Positions 17,045-27,000 of a DNA stretch of 64,000 bases are shown one piece after another. A model generated the notes under the pieces. The model was not told the origin of the DNA, made no database searches, and worked only from the letters and a program-made list of their open reading frames with translations. A program made the position numbers and the translations under genes. The stretch's first letter is position 1. Each line of letters opens with the position of its first letter. The stretch comes from Pseudomonas muyukensis (GTDB taxonomy: Bacteria > Pseudomonadota > Gammaproteobacteria > Pseudomonadales > Pseudomonadaceae), in contig NZ_CP077073.1 in NCBI RefSeq assembly GCF_019139535.1, forward strand, positions 1,624,001 through 1,688,000. The letters are read 5' to 3'.

Positions 17045-17154
17045 CTGGCGAGGGCTTCGCCCTCGTTTCGCGACACCAGGCCGCTCCTACAGGATTAGCG
17101 CCGTCCCTGTAGGAGCGGCCTGGTGTCGCGATGGGCCGCAAAGCGGCCCCTGGC
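17045..17154. repeat. REP pair inside the alginate operon (algL-algI gap)
   Basis: Two inverted REP units (tttcgcgacaccaggccgctcctac and gtaggagcggcctggtgtcgcga) with flanking gggcttcgccc and gggccgcaaagcggcccc stems lie between the algL stop and the algI start, within a co-transcribed operon. Confidence 0.85.
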
Positions 17155-21297: not shown

Positions 21298-22776
21298 TCA
21301 GAAGCGCCAGATCACGTCGACGAAGGCACGGTGCATGTACGAGTCCGCTTCCTTGCCATAGGCGTCGCCCGGCTTGAACACACCGGCGCGCAGGCGCACC
21401 AGGGCCGAGGGCTCGTCGATCGACTGGCTGATGGAGGCTGGCAGCAGGCCCTGCTTGAAGTACTTGGTGACGACCACGTCCATTTCCTGGCCCAGGTCCT
21501 TCTCGCCGTTGACCAGCGGACGGCTCACCCCGCCGTCGTCGACCACCGCGTTGATGCCGCTGGCGCCGATGTTCTGCTGGTCATCGACGCGCCAGAACTT
21601 GTGGTAGATGAAGCTGGCGTCGTAGTCGTCGCGCAGCTGCCAGGAGGCGAACAGGGTTGCGGCCTGCAGGTTGCCCAGCTGGCCGCGGAAGGCCTCGCCG
21701 AAGCGGTGCACGCGCGAGCGGGTGCCGGTGAAGTTGGAGCGGTTGCTTTCCAGGCCGGTCTGTTCGAAGTTGCTCGAGCCGTCGTCGCCACCGCCGCCGC
21801 TGCCACGGGCATAGGCCGCGCCGACCTGCCACTGCGGGTCGAGGCGCAGGCGGATGCCAAGGTCGGTGGCCCAGGCGTTGACGTCGCCACTCTGCTTGCC
21901 GGTGGCGACCTGGTCGTTGCCCAGGGTGCTGGTGGTCAGCTTGTCGCGGTCGCCGGTCAGCCAGGTGACGCTGCCCCAGTAGTTGACGGTATGCTCGTTG
22001 CGCCAGTTGTAGGCGTCGCTGTTGGCTTCCAGGCCCAGCCAGGTGAGGTCGCCGGTGCGGGTCTTGTCGAGGGCATCGACGGTCTCGCCGGGGTTCTTCA
22101 GGCTGCCGCCGTCATGGGTGTGGTGGGCGCGCACGCCGACCCAGTGGCCGGGGGTCCACTGTGTGGCGATGTTGCCGTAGAGGTGGGTGCGGTCCTTGTC
22201 CTCGGGAGCCAGCTCGGTCAGGTCGGTGCGGTACTCGCTGAAACGCTGGGCCACGCCCAGGTCGGCCTTGAGCAAGGTGGTGTCGAAGGTCCAGTTCAGC
22301 GCCTCGATGTTGGTGTCGCGCCACATGCCGTCGTCGCTGCGCAGGCGCTGGCGGCCGAAGCGCAGTTGCTCGCCAGGGTAGGCGGTCAGGCCACTGTAGC
22401 CGACCCAGAATTCGCGCATGGCCAGGTAGCTCTTGTCCTGCTTGCGCTCGTCGGCGGCGGTGTCGGTGGCGCTGCCGTCGTCGTTCTGGCGCAGGGTGTC
22501 GGTCTCGATGGTGTCGGTGGCGGTCACCGCCTGGCCCATGGCGAAGGCGCTCCAGTTGCCGCGCTCGCCATACACCCAGGGGCGCAGGTCCAGGCCCAGG
22601 CCGTTGACGTCGCCGCCGGAGCGGGTGCCGAGGTCGCGGTCGTCTTCGGACTGGCCGGTGATCTTCACGTCCAGGCCGAAGTTCTTCTGCGCGGTTTGCG
22701 CCGCCAGGGTCGGCATCGACCACAGCAGGGCGAAGCTCAGGCCAATGCCGGCTTTCACGAAGGGGTTGAGCGTCAT
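21298..22776 (-). CDS. algE: AlgE: outer-membrane alginate export porin
   Basis: A 492-aa outer-membrane beta-barrel for alginate secretion. The signal peptide ends [13 protein letters not shown], the barrel has alternating aromatic strands, and the C-terminus is VDVIWRF with the terminal Phe used by the Bam machinery. Family motifs such as [19 protein letters not shown] and [20 protein letters not shown] are clear. Its ATG overlaps the last bases of algK by 4 bp, so translation is coupled to the lipoprotein that docks to it. Confidence 0.96.
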
Positions 22777-24305
22777 AGCGAATCCTCGGCGTCTACTTCA
22801 TCGTGCTCGTCTTGCAGCGCTTCGATGGCCAAGGTGCTGTGGGCGCCTTGGTTCATGCTGCCGCGAGCCTGCTTCTCCTGCGCCAGCAGGTTTTGCGCCT
22901 GGCTGCGCTGGTCGGGCGTGAGTTGCTGGTCGAGCTGTTGCAGCAGTTCGGCCGATTGCGGCGTCGGGTTGACCTGCGACAGCTGGGCGAATACCCAGGC
23001 GTTGGTCGGCTCACTGCGGATGCCGTGGCCTTCGCTGAACAGCTGGGCGAGGGCGTAGTCGGCGCTGTTCTGGCCACCACGGGCGGCGGCCAGCAGGTGG
23101 TCGACGGCCTTCTGCGGCTCGACGTTGCCCAGGTAGCCGCGGCGGTACAGCTGGCCGAGGTAGTAATGGGCACTGACTTCGCCTGCGTCGGCGGCGGCCT
23201 GCAGGTGCTGCTCGGCCTTCGCCGCGTCGGCCGGCACGGTCTTGCCTTCGTAGTACAGGCGGCCCAGCAGCAGCTCGGCGCGGGGTTGCTCGGCAGCGCG
23301 GCCCTTGTCGATGTAGGCCATGAGCTGGTCGGTATCGCCCAGCTCGGGGAAGTCGTAGAGCAATTGCGCCAGGCTCACCCAGGAGGCAGGGTTGGCGGGG
23401 GCGACTTGCTCGAGCAAGTCCTTGGCGGTTTTCTCGTCGGTCTGGCCCAGGCTGCGGTCGGCCAGCACCCGGGCCACGCTGTCGACCCGGGTGGCCGGCA
23501 CGGCGCCGCGGGCGTAGGCGGCCTTGAGCTGCTCCAGCAGGGCGGCCTGCTGCTCGGGCTGGGCGCGCTTCTGGTAGACGCTGGCCAGTTCGACGTAGCA
23601 GATGTCGGTGCTGGCCAGGGCCGCCTTGCAGATCTTTTCCACCTCGCCCAGGTGTTGGTCGTAGCTGCCCTGGGTGCGGTACAGCAGCACCTGGGCCAGG
23701 CCCGCCTCGGGGTTGCCGGCGGCGCGCCACTGGTCGATCTGCTGCTGGGCGTTGATGTTGGGGAAGCTCTGCGGGTACTGCAGGTAGAGCATCGCCAGGG
23801 GGATCAGGGTGTTGCCTTCGCCTTGCCTGGCCGCGAGCTTGAGCAGCGATTCGGCCTCTTCGCGCTCGGCCTGGGTGCTGTCGGGCTTGGCCACCAGCAG
23901 GCGGCCGAGGCGGGCCTGGGCGCGGGGCGAGGTGGCGGCGGCGGCGCGGTAGGTGGCTTCGGCCTGTTTGAGCTGGGCCGGGTCGCGGGTGGCGACCTGG
24001 ATATCGGCCAGGCCGACTTGCGCCTCGCTGTAACCCAGATCGGCCAAGGCCTTGTAGTTGCGCTCGGCGGTGGCGGTGTCGCCGCGCTTGAGCGCTTCGT
24101 TGGCCAGGCGCTGGTCGGGCAGGCCGGCGCAGCCGGCCAGGGTGATGGCCAGGGCCAGCGCGCACAGGCCCTGGCCAAAACCGTCCCTGTAGGAGCCGGC
24201 TTGCCGGCGAATGGCTCGCGCAGGTGTTGCATCCCATGGGCGAGTGCTGCGCACTCGATCGCCGGCAAGCCGGCTCCTACAGGTATCGGGGTATCTGCTG
24301 GTCAT
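22773..24305 (-). CDS. algK: AlgK: alginate export TPR lipoprotein, with a REP-encoded N-terminal insert
   Basis: A 510-aa outer-membrane lipoprotein with Sel1/TPR repeats that localises AlgE and binds AlgX. The mature part begins at the lipobox L56-A-G-C59, followed by [25 protein letters not shown], and Sel1-like repeats run to the C-terminus. The start at 24305 has agaggg at a good distance and lies 13 bp after alg44. Residues about 8-40 are encoded by an intact REP pair (24187-24282), giving a 58-residue signal region in place of the usual 20-28. Removing those 32 codons would give a normal lipoprotein signal. No alternative ATG near the hydrophobic core is in frame (a GTG at residue 18 is). 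Whether export still works is unknown. Confidence 0.92.
24187..24282. repeat. REP pair inside the algK coding sequence
   Basis: Two inverted REP units (ctgtaggagccggcttgccgg at the left and the exact inverse at the right) flank a short palindrome (cgagtgctgcgcactcg). The element spans 96 bp, an exact multiple of three, and carries no stop in the algK frame. Confidence 0.9.
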
Positions 24306-24317
24306 GGGTTATCCCTC

Positions 24318-25484
24318 TTAAAGCCCGCGGGCCACGGCCTTGTCGATCAGCCAGTTCAGCGACGGGCCACGGTCGCTGTTGACCGCGGCCGGGCGCCCGG
24401 CGAGTTCGGCCGGCAGGCCTTCGTCGGGCTGGATCTGCACGCGGATGTCGGCGGCCAGGTTGTCGGTGTCCAGGCTCGAACTGCCGACGATCTTGCCGCT
24501 GCGCACGTCGTCCTCGCCGGCGACCTGGAAGTTGACCCGGGTGCCGGGCTTCACTTCATCGAACTGGCGGTAGCTGAAGCGCGCCTCGACGGTCGGGGTG
24601 GTGGTCCGCGGGATCAGCGCGAACACCGGCTGGCCCTTGCTGGCGTACTGGCCGTCGTCCACCAGCTGGCGCGAGACCACGCAATCGCAGGGGCTGGTGA
24701 GGGTGCCGGAGAGCTGCTTGCCGAACAGCTCCTCGACCTTGGCCGGTTCCAGCTGCGAATCGTCCAGGTGCCCCTTGAGCAGGTCGAGCATGCTGGTGTT
24801 GAAGGTCGCCAGCGGCGCGCCCTTGGCCACCGTGGCGCCGCTGTGCACCAGGCTTTGCAGGCTGCCGTCGCGGGGCATGGTGACGTTGGTGGTGGGCACC
24901 GCCACCACGCCGGCTTCGGCATGGCTGACGAAGTACAGGCCGTACAGCGACTTGGCGACGAAGCCGAAGGCCAGCAGGCCGACGGCGAACACCCCGGCGG
25001 TGACGGTGACCGCGCGCAGGCGGCCGAACGCCGACAGGCCGGAGCCGCCGTCCTTCTGCTTGCGCGCCTTGGTGAAGTTGTCGCGCTGCAGGGTGCTGAG
25101 CACGTCGCCGACGCTGATCAGTTCGCCGGACAGGTGGCTGGTGATGATGTGGCGCAGGGTGGCGATGTCGCGCGGCTCGAGGTTCTGGAACTCGGTGCCG
25201 ATGCGCCCGCTCTGGGCATCGCTGGTGCGCACCAGCAGCTCGACGTCCATCGACAGGCCAAGGTTGTCGACCACGAACTGCAGGCGGCCACGCAGCACCT
25301 CGCCCTCGGCCAGGGGTTTTCTGGCATGGAAGGACAGGCCCCCGGCGGAAAGATCGTCCACCTTCACATCGTGCGGCTCGCGGTTGCCGTCCAGGTAGCG
25401 CAGCTTGGCAGGGATGCGCACCCGGGCGTGCTGGCGCTGCGCCTCGGATTCATGCACGACGTTGACGTTCACGGCGGTATTCAT
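24318..25484 (-). CDS. alg44: Alg44: c-di-GMP-binding alginate co-polymerase
   Basis: A 388-aa inner-membrane protein needed for alginate polymerisation. The N-terminal PilZ domain holds the c-di-GMP motifs RQHAR (residues 17-21) and DLSAGG (44-49). One membrane segment lies near residues 158-178, and the rest is a periplasmic HlyD-like barrel-sandwich domain. Alginate synthesis here should therefore respond to c-di-GMP after translation. It lies 34 bp after alg8 and 13 bp before algK. Confidence 0.96.
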   Translation of the reverse strand: MNTAVNVNVVHESEAQRQHARVRIPAKLRYLDGNREPHDVKVDDLSAGGLSFHARKPLAEGEVLRGRLQFVVDNLGLSMDVELLVRTSDAQSGRIGTEFQNLEPRDIATLRHIITSHLSGELISVGDVLSTLQRDNFTKARKQKDGGSGLSAFGRLRAVTVTAGVFAVGLLAFGFVAKSLYGLYFVSHAEAGVVAVPTTNVTMPRDGSLQSLVHSGATVAKGAPLATFNTSMLDLLKGHLDDSQLEPAKVEELFGKQLSGTLTSPCDCVVSRQLVDDGQYASKGQPVFALIPRTTTPTVEARFSYRQFDEVKPGTRVNFQVAGEDDVRSGKIVGSSSLDTDNLAADIRVQIQPDEGLPAELAGRPAAVNSDRGPSLNWLIDKAVARGL

Positions 25485-25518
25485 GGCGATTTCGTTCCTG
25501 TTATCCGATCCGGGGGGC

Positions 25519-27000
25519 TCACACGACCATGAACAGCACGGCGACGAAGATGCTCGCGGCCGAGAAGGTCATGGTCCGCGAGGACCAGGTGTTGAACCAT
25601 TGTTGAAAGCTTGCGAGGTCGCGCTTGAGGGCAGTGGGCTGGCGGGTCCAGGACTGCTTGTCGAGACGGAAGAACACGTAGATCTTCATCAGCGCGCCGA
25701 CGATCTGGTTGTAATAGAGAATCAGCGGGTAGGCGGGGCCGACGTTGTGCCCCGAGCACAGCAGCATGATGGTGAGGATCAGGCGGGTGATGCCGATCCA
25801 CAGCAGGTACACCAGCAGGAACTGCAGGCCGAACTTGAAGCTGGCGATCACCGCCACGGTCAGGCCCAGCAGGCTGGTCCACATCGACACGCGCTGGTCG
25901 AGCAGCACGATGCTGGTGAACAGCCCCAGGCGCTTGAGGCCCAGGCCCAGGGCGCGGGAGTTCTGCCGCAGGTTGTTGCCGTACCAGCGGTACATCAGCT
26001 TGCGGCTGGCCTTGACGAAGCTCTTCTCCGGCGGGTGCTCGACGGTGTTGATCGCCGCGTCCGGCACGTAGAAGGTGTCGTAGCCCAGGCGCATCAGGCT
26101 GAACCAGCTGGACTTGTCGTCGCCGGTGAGGAACTTGAAGCGGCCCAGGCGCCAGTGCATCAGCGAGTCGCTTTCCACATCGGCGATGAATTCGGGGTCG
26201 GTCACCACGCTTGCGCGGAACATCGACATGCGCCCGGTCATGGTCAGCACGCGCTTGCTCAGGGCCATCGAGCACATGTTGATGTGGCGCTGGGCGAAGC
26301 GCAGTTTGTGCCACTCGCTCATGATGTAGCCGCCGCGCACTTCGCAAAATTCGTTGGTGGTCAGGCCGCCGACGTTGGGATAGAGCTTGAACCACGGCAC
26401 GGTCTTGCGCACCACGCCCTCGGCCAGCACGGTATCGCCATCGATCACCGCCACCACGGCATGGTCGTCGGGCAGCATCCGCGAGATGGCGCGGAAACCG
26501 TAGGCCAGGCCGTCGCGCTTGCCGGTGCCGGCGATGCGCACGATGTCCAGGGTGACATGCTCGGGTGGGTTGTACTTGGCCCACAGGCTCTTGACCAACA
26601 GCTCGTCGGACTTTTCCACCAGCGAGCAGACCACGGTGGTGGGGAAACCGCAGTCGATGGCTTCGCGGATCACCGAGCTGTACACCTGGGCGGTGGTCAG
26701 GGCGTCGATGCGAAAGCTGGTGACCATCAGGTACACGTGCGACGGGTCGGCGGCGCTGCCCAGCTTGCGCACCTTGCGGCGCAGGTAGGGGTAGACCAGG
26801 TACAGGAAGATCATGCCACGGATGAAATGGGTGGCGCCCATGGAGTAGCGCCAGATGCCGACCGCGCCGACCAGGAAGATGAAGTGCTTGGACTGCGCGT
26901 CGAAGATATCGCTGGGCAGGGCCAGGGCGATCAGCATGAGCAGGCTCATGTAGAGCAGCCAGCCGGCGCACTGCAACAGCACTGTCTGGAACCTTTGCAT
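25519..27000 (-). CDS. alg8: Alg8: alginate polymerase, GT2 glycosyltransferase
   Basis: A 493-aa inner-membrane glycosyltransferase family 2 enzyme that polymerises GDP-mannuronate. It has N-terminal membrane helices ([15 protein letters not shown]), the catalytic DGD in [11 protein letters not shown], the second acidic motif TGDDKSSWF, and C-terminal membrane helices. Two in-frame ATGs exist (27009 and 27000). Neither has a strong Shine-Dalgarno; I chose 27000 (MQRFQ), but 27009 (MPNMQRFQ) is equally possible. It lies about 70 bp after algD. Confidence 0.95.

Follow-up and report, generated by a model that had tools for sequence, protein, structure and literature searches.

The window analysed here is a stretch of 64,000 nucleotides from the Pseudomonas muyukensis genome (contig NZ_CP077073.1, positions 1,624,001 to 1,688,000), and the locus under study is the 5′ end of algK on its minus strand. 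The gene was assigned through the NCBIfam family NF038194, which matched residues 47-488 of the product with 793.9 bits against a cut-off of 700. We take the preceding gene to be alg44 on the basis of operon position, its NCBIfam matches being sub-threshold only. The AlgK precursor consists of MTSRYPD, a REP pair, GFGQG, a hydrophobic stretch, and a lipobox ending at Cys59, and this hydrophobic core followed by a lipobox Cys is the arrangement of a lipoprotein signal peptide. Cleavage at this point by signal peptidase II would presumably leave Cys59 at the N-terminus of mature AlgK. The features of the locus are as follows.

22773..24305, minus strand: algK, the host gene of the REPIN, 510 codons, AlgK according to NCBIfam NF038194
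24303..24305, minus strand: ATG start of algK, with a GAGGG motif ending 7 nt upstream
24318..25484, minus strand: alg44, upstream of algK, with its stop 12 nt before the algK start
24129..24131, minus strand: codon of the lipobox Cys59, read from the algK translation
24186..24283, minus strand: REPIN in the algK frame, two REPs whose perfect arms of 25 nt enclose a spacer of 48 nt
24259..24283, minus strand: first arm reached by the ribosome, read as (T)CRSRLAGD
24186..24210, minus strand: second arm, read as RRQAGSYR

An open frame of 909 codons runs antisense across algK and alg44 (22803-25532, plus strand) and is probably a shadow of the GC-rich coding sequence.

The two arms were 100% complementary, and the inverted pair lay wholly within the ORF at 22773-24305 (minus strand), between codon 7 of algK and the hydrophobic core that ends at Cys59. 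The pair carries the GTAG tips of Pseudomonas REPs and has both the GT(A/G)G tip and the palindromic core by which REPs are recognized; as two opposite REPs able to form a hairpin, it is a REPIN. The RNA of the algK leader folded with z = -6.9, and 0 of 200 shuffles folded as well, so the inverted pair exceeds chance. The stem of 25 bp begins 22 nt into algK. The element lies inside a gene and in frame, and not in the extragenic placement that is usual, although not defining, for REPs; as a REP within the ORF of a known protein, it is an intragenic REP on sequence grounds. The intact inverted REP pair reported in the preliminary description was thus confirmed, and the length given for it, 96 bp, was two short of the perfect symmetry of 98 bp. 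The Arg-rich character ascribed to the leader holds for this strain, with a net charge of +7 over 40 residues, but not in general, the median of long leaders being +3.

Only two start codons precede Cys59 in the algK frame, namely the ATG 58 codons upstream and a GTG 41 codons upstream. Both precede REP sequence, and any ATG, GTG, or TTG start giving this lipoprotein signal would therefore translate REP. The suggestion that the true start could be the GTG at codon 18, avoiding the element, was rejected because this codon falls in the REPIN spacer and a start there still reads the right arm. A sequencing or assembly error, which the preliminary description had named as something that would refute it, is unlikely in view of the single-contig genome and of inserts of like class in separately sequenced relatives.

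The algK REP is repetitive in its own genome, with 166 BLAST matches when both strands of each place are counted. The genome contains 26 REP pairs of the algK arm type, the algK pair included. The other 25 have one common 77-bp core and spacer, and the algK copy differs from them in its 86-bp core and its spacer. Judging from this difference in core and spacer, the algK REPIN appears to be an old or mosaic copy. Two genes for Y1 transposases (RAYT-like, PF01797) with adjoining REPs were found in this genome.

G000:C1:286987-287301 and 1320913-1321230: Y1 transposase genes L307 and L308, respectively, with two REP types beside them, unlike the algK arms

A cognate RAYT for the algK arm type was not found, both Y1 genes of this genome adjoining other REP types.

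To see how the algK pair compares with other REPs, we surveyed 864 kb of the same genome (800 kb plus the window) with strict arms, because a two-mismatch search was flooded by coding look-alikes. Among 194 strict REP arms, six were inside called genes. One of the six lay in algK, and the calls that contained the other five were 54-75 nt long and scored no more than 34. The other algK arm was placed upstream by the gene caller, because the caller preferred the GTG at codon 18. In these 864 kb, algK had the only REP pair within a confidently called gene. Twenty-one further arms were located solely in upstream extensions of longest ORFs, and 11 of them preceded eight better-scored genes. Well-scored genes with arms in such extensions include those at 289948-291897, 312842-314473, 325684-326919, 567858-569087, 3801427-3802074, 3859988-3862213, and 4152054-4153244; some of these could be further N-terminal REPs. 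Across about 750 kb of sequence around algK from 80 named loci, 69 REP arms were in the leader and 25 REP-like matches were elsewhere. The latter were weak, 24 having three mismatches and one having two, and from their sequence and repeated position we judged them to be coding look-alikes. Protein searches with the REP-coded residues, which need shared 5-residue words and say little about other proteins, gave 2 of 91 candidates, both named AlgK, and, in a second search, 17 of 23 candidates, of which 13 were named AlgK and four were unnamed with the same Pfam domain, PF27483.

The distribution of REPs was analyzed in the algK leader, defined as the interval between the upstream gene's stop codon and the lipobox Cys of AlgK, at 222 loci: 142 genus-wide and 80 named. 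The 142 loci were the better AlgK matches among 199 genomes drawn from across Pseudomonas; the other 57 genomes, some of them without a worthwhile AlgK-like match, are outside the leader count. The search for the 80 named loci used patterns taken from this AlgK, and the set is biased towards its relatives. Duplicate removal left 200 rows. Long leaders (at least 115 nt) accounted for 96 of the 142 genus-wide and 58 of the 80 named leaders. An exact REP tip was present in 90 of the 142 leaders, one of them short (L006), and 68 of these 90 had tips in both directions. The distance from start to Cys was 34-71 codons in long leaders (139 rows) and 17-30 codons in short leaders (59 rows). Leaders that lack the pair are short, and the earlier claim of a REP pair in coding sequence without a break in frame is borne out.

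When one mismatch was allowed, the leaders formed seven two-tip classes by tip order and codon phase, 15 of the 200 rows having no class. The class >2<1 comprised 74 of 200 rows, a count that includes decayed forms and the doubtful row L089, with tips matched at one mismatch. In four nested rows (L163, L174, L178, and L202), one REPIN seemingly lies inside another and is still in the algK frame. The insertion had been regarded as an event of one strain, and this view did not hold: close relatives (L002-L005, L057, L060, L061, and L080) have the same class as this strain, and in other species other classes occupy that position. Two short leaders kept REP scars, L066 being 90 nt shorter than L002 and L121 being 96 nt shorter than L031. 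The preliminary description had allowed that a long N-terminus in all close relatives would speak against an insertion. This proved half true, since short leaders, deletion scars, and differing element types indicate repeated gain and loss and not an ancestral long signal. Pseudomonas-like AlgK proteins (79-87% identity) with REP leaders were also found under the titles Pantoea sp. Cy-639 (L096), Pantoea sp. Ap-967 (L102), and a Paucimonas MAG (L114); these titles are probably wrong.

The reading frame was kept throughout. The distance from start to Cys was divisible by three in all 198 rows analyzed. The start was the earliest start codon following a Shine-Dalgarno-like motif or, in 26 rows, the first ATG of the leader. 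The motif-based procedure gave no start in 26 of the 200 rows and a wrong TTG in L074 and L078; the first ATG was used for these, and the omission of L040 and L042 reduced the 200 rows to 198. Of 95 leaders that had an exact tip in each direction, none contained a stop in the algK frame from tip to tip, against an expectation of 31.4 from shuffled spacers; in the two other frames, 41 and 60 of the leaders contained one. The length from tip to tip modulo three is no frame test, because the insertion phase varies. One phase would turn a GTAG tip into a TAG stop, and in this phase 73 of 73 forward tips were GTGG, and in other phases, 18 of 53 forward tips were GTAG. This is partial support only, as GTGG predominates anyway in the genomes with that phase (35 to 8 at 40 control loci).

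Substitution rates were obtained from 32 non-overlapping nearest pairs with equal leader length and tip position. The substitutions per site at codon positions 1, 2, and 3 were 0.125, 0.107, and 0.123 in the REPIN, 0.037, 0.025, and 0.225 in the first 300 nt of the mature gene, and 0.154, 0.075, and 0.306 in the last 45 nt of the signal, respectively. Selection on the REP-coded peptide was not seen, there being no codon-position bias over the 32 nearest pairs. Within the REPIN, the spacer changed at about 0.19 per site, near the third-position rate of the mature gene, and the arms at about 0.05. The REP-coded stretch appears to be translated, with its frame kept and its residues under no visible selection.

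An intergenic junction of the same operon served as the control, the presence of a REP pair at this junction in the present genome being the reason for its choice.

17068..17131, no strand assigned: REP pair in the algL-algI intergenic spacer, the control junction

The junction was read at 67 of 70 loci; L264, L273, and L279 were dropped because the end of the flanking gene was not found. The control gap runs to the projected first residue of a 504-aa AlgI ORF, 57 nt before the likely start MVFSSN, which does not affect its length modulo three. With a pattern allowing two mismatches, REPs of many different types were detected in 50 of the 67 loci, and the REP-bearing gaps were distributed as 12/19/19 over the three remainders modulo three (50 loci). 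The control REPs were also slow-armed, with 0.045 in the arms versus 0.30 in the spacer, although from 8 pairs only. REPs are thus similarly frequent in the algK n-region and in the algL-algI spacer, but those of the n-region occur only in frame.

We consider it probable that REPINs have a permissive landing site inside a gene, namely in the n-region of the AlgK signal. REPINs, presumably moved by a RAYT transposase, would arrive at the alg44-algK junction in the same way as at permissive spacers, and REP presence is indeed similar at the algL-algI spacer. Insertions causing a frameshift or introducing a stop would destroy AlgK and be lost, and those with an open frame would be translated and lengthen the n-region, as the frame and stop counts indicate. 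Lipoprotein signal peptides are removed by signal peptidase II, which cleaves just ahead of the lipobox Cys. Because the extra residues precede both the hydrophobic core and the lipobox, they should be lost together with that peptide, so that mature AlgK would be unchanged. The peptide would then drift without visible selection on its residues, with the frame kept and the arms remaining REP-like. We propose that only open-frame arrivals survive because the n-region, expected to be cut off, needs little beyond frame. Two findings count against such a landing site: no cognate RAYT was found for this arm type, and, although this n-region should not be the only tolerant stretch, no other confidently called gene with a REP inside was found in 864 kb, which leaves the choice of algK unexplained.

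How many insertions occurred bears on this reading. The protein tree with support below 95 collapsed required at fewest about 20 short/long changes and 30 class changes, and the DNA tree collapsed below 95 or 99 required 28 or 21 short/long changes and 43 or 31 class changes, respectively. Uncollapsed protein and DNA trees gave 38 and 36 short/long changes and 56 and 55 class changes, respectively; all are quick one-gene trees with many weak branches. Changes in leader length, 94-122 on these trees, are inflated because the rows differ in the start taken, which is either ATG or a GTG two codons further downstream. Instead of many separate insertions, a few ancient ones could have been followed by arm swapping or spacer exchange with other REPINs, or by leader recombination, an account that we regard as rather unlikely. 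The weakness of the trees leaves room for it, and it would fit the class >2<1, whose 74 of 200 rows have related spacers and different arm types, as well as like arms that enclose different spacers, as in L149 and L034. However, arm swapping cannot interconvert opposite orientations or reading phases, and even the DNA tree collapsed below 99 still needs those approximately 21 short/long and 31 class changes. By our inference, 21 frame-keeping changes in a row at a one-third chance each would occur about once in ten billion. Leader recombination or tree errors would lower the true number of insertions, but would not explain the frame.

Two further explanations concern what the element does once it is present. 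AlgK could start downstream of an untranslated REP, the long ORF being open by chance, and a downstream start has been proposed in print for P. putida, where most N-terminal REPs of ORFs were judged non-coding and put down to wrong starts (PMC3733652, in the passages covered). The gene caller preferred the GTG at codon 18, and 107 of 127 long leaders with an exact tip have an ATG, GTG, or TTG between the last tip and Cys, so that the coding case in these 107 rests on frame and stops. This explanation is nevertheless highly improbable: 20 of the 127, the leader of this strain and 19 more, lack any start codon beyond the last tip, and untranslated DNA would not keep zero stops and zero frame changes, the control junction not being frame-keeping. 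Alternatively, the hairpin may be kept for a function, slowing translation or altering alg mRNA stability at alg44-algK and thereby tuning the AlgK level. The very stable fold (z = -6.9), arms that change more slowly than the spacer (about 0.05 versus 0.19 per site), and repeated refilling of the site with different REPINs would suit such a role, which we nonetheless find unlikely. Arms are slow at the intergenic control too (0.045 versus 0.30, 8 pairs), and slow arms are thus a property of REPINs; moreover, REP presence at algK is not above that at the control, and in many leaders the element has decayed or been deleted. The hairpin may affect AlgK synthesis, but the data do not require such an effect. 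A version with weak selection, in which the n-region is a standing docking site for REPINs and the translated hairpin tunes AlgK synthesis in the alg operon, seems to us equally doubtful. If it were true, the gain, exchange, and loss of REPINs among lineages would amount to an evolvable control of expression inside a protein, and removal of the signal peptide would keep the cost to the mature protein nil.

The preferred reading, a permissive landing site in the AlgK n-region, can be set against known systems. Passages of four reports describe REPs as primarily or almost exclusively extragenic (PMC3116915, PMC3390384, PMC12306157, and PMC3686654), and in strain SBW25, just 14 of 1,067 top 16-mers overlap genes, as stated in a part of PMC3116915. 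The statement of the preliminary description that REPs are normally extragenic thus agrees with the literature as a general rule, but is not absolute, since intragenic REPs are known. The algK pair resembles the Pseudomonas GTAG-1 REPs and REPINs in its GTAG tip, inverted pairing, hairpin, and many genomic copies; GTAG-1 REPs are described as extragenic in the sections of PMC3116915 covered, whereas the algK pair is coding. Di Nocera and colleagues (2013, PMC3733652) reported, in the portions covered, intragenic GTAG and CGTC REPs in ORFs of several species, often as dimers and some of them N-terminal, and Table 1 of that paper lists intragenic REP units. Most of these are in different genes and sites, with one shared site in recB of two Xanthomonas, according to the same portions. 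In contrast, the algK elements occupy one site in one gene of many species, and their frame-keeping indicates coding.

Small mobile repeats within enterobacterial genes have also been reported (PMC2759123, in part). The palindromic elements of Rickettsia, as outlined in PMC3733652, are similar in being palindromic repeats translated in frame within proteins. The algK arms differ from them in belonging to the Pseudomonas GTAG REPs, another family in another host, and the algK insert is part of a signal peptide whose removal is expected, with an intergenic control available for comparison. Extended signal peptides of autotransporters, as presented in the covered text of PMC2805444, are likewise unusually long N-terminal extensions before an ordinary signal; the AlgK extension differs in being REP DNA, variable among lineages, with residues under no visible selection. 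The titles and abstract openings of the matches listed on AlgK or on REP signal peptides and in-frame insertion, with supplements outside the scope, contained no earlier report of a REP in the AlgK signal. Intragenic REPs were already known, and the new part is their recurrence at one signal peptide.

REPs serve as markers of non-coding DNA, and algK provides comparative evidence of repeated coding REPs at one place. The REPINs gained, swapped, and lost at this single site form a natural series in which, given the intergenic control in the same operon, REPIN turnover can be measured. The n-region of this lipoprotein signal is little constrained, accommodating up to 71 codons before the Cys and several unrelated translations.
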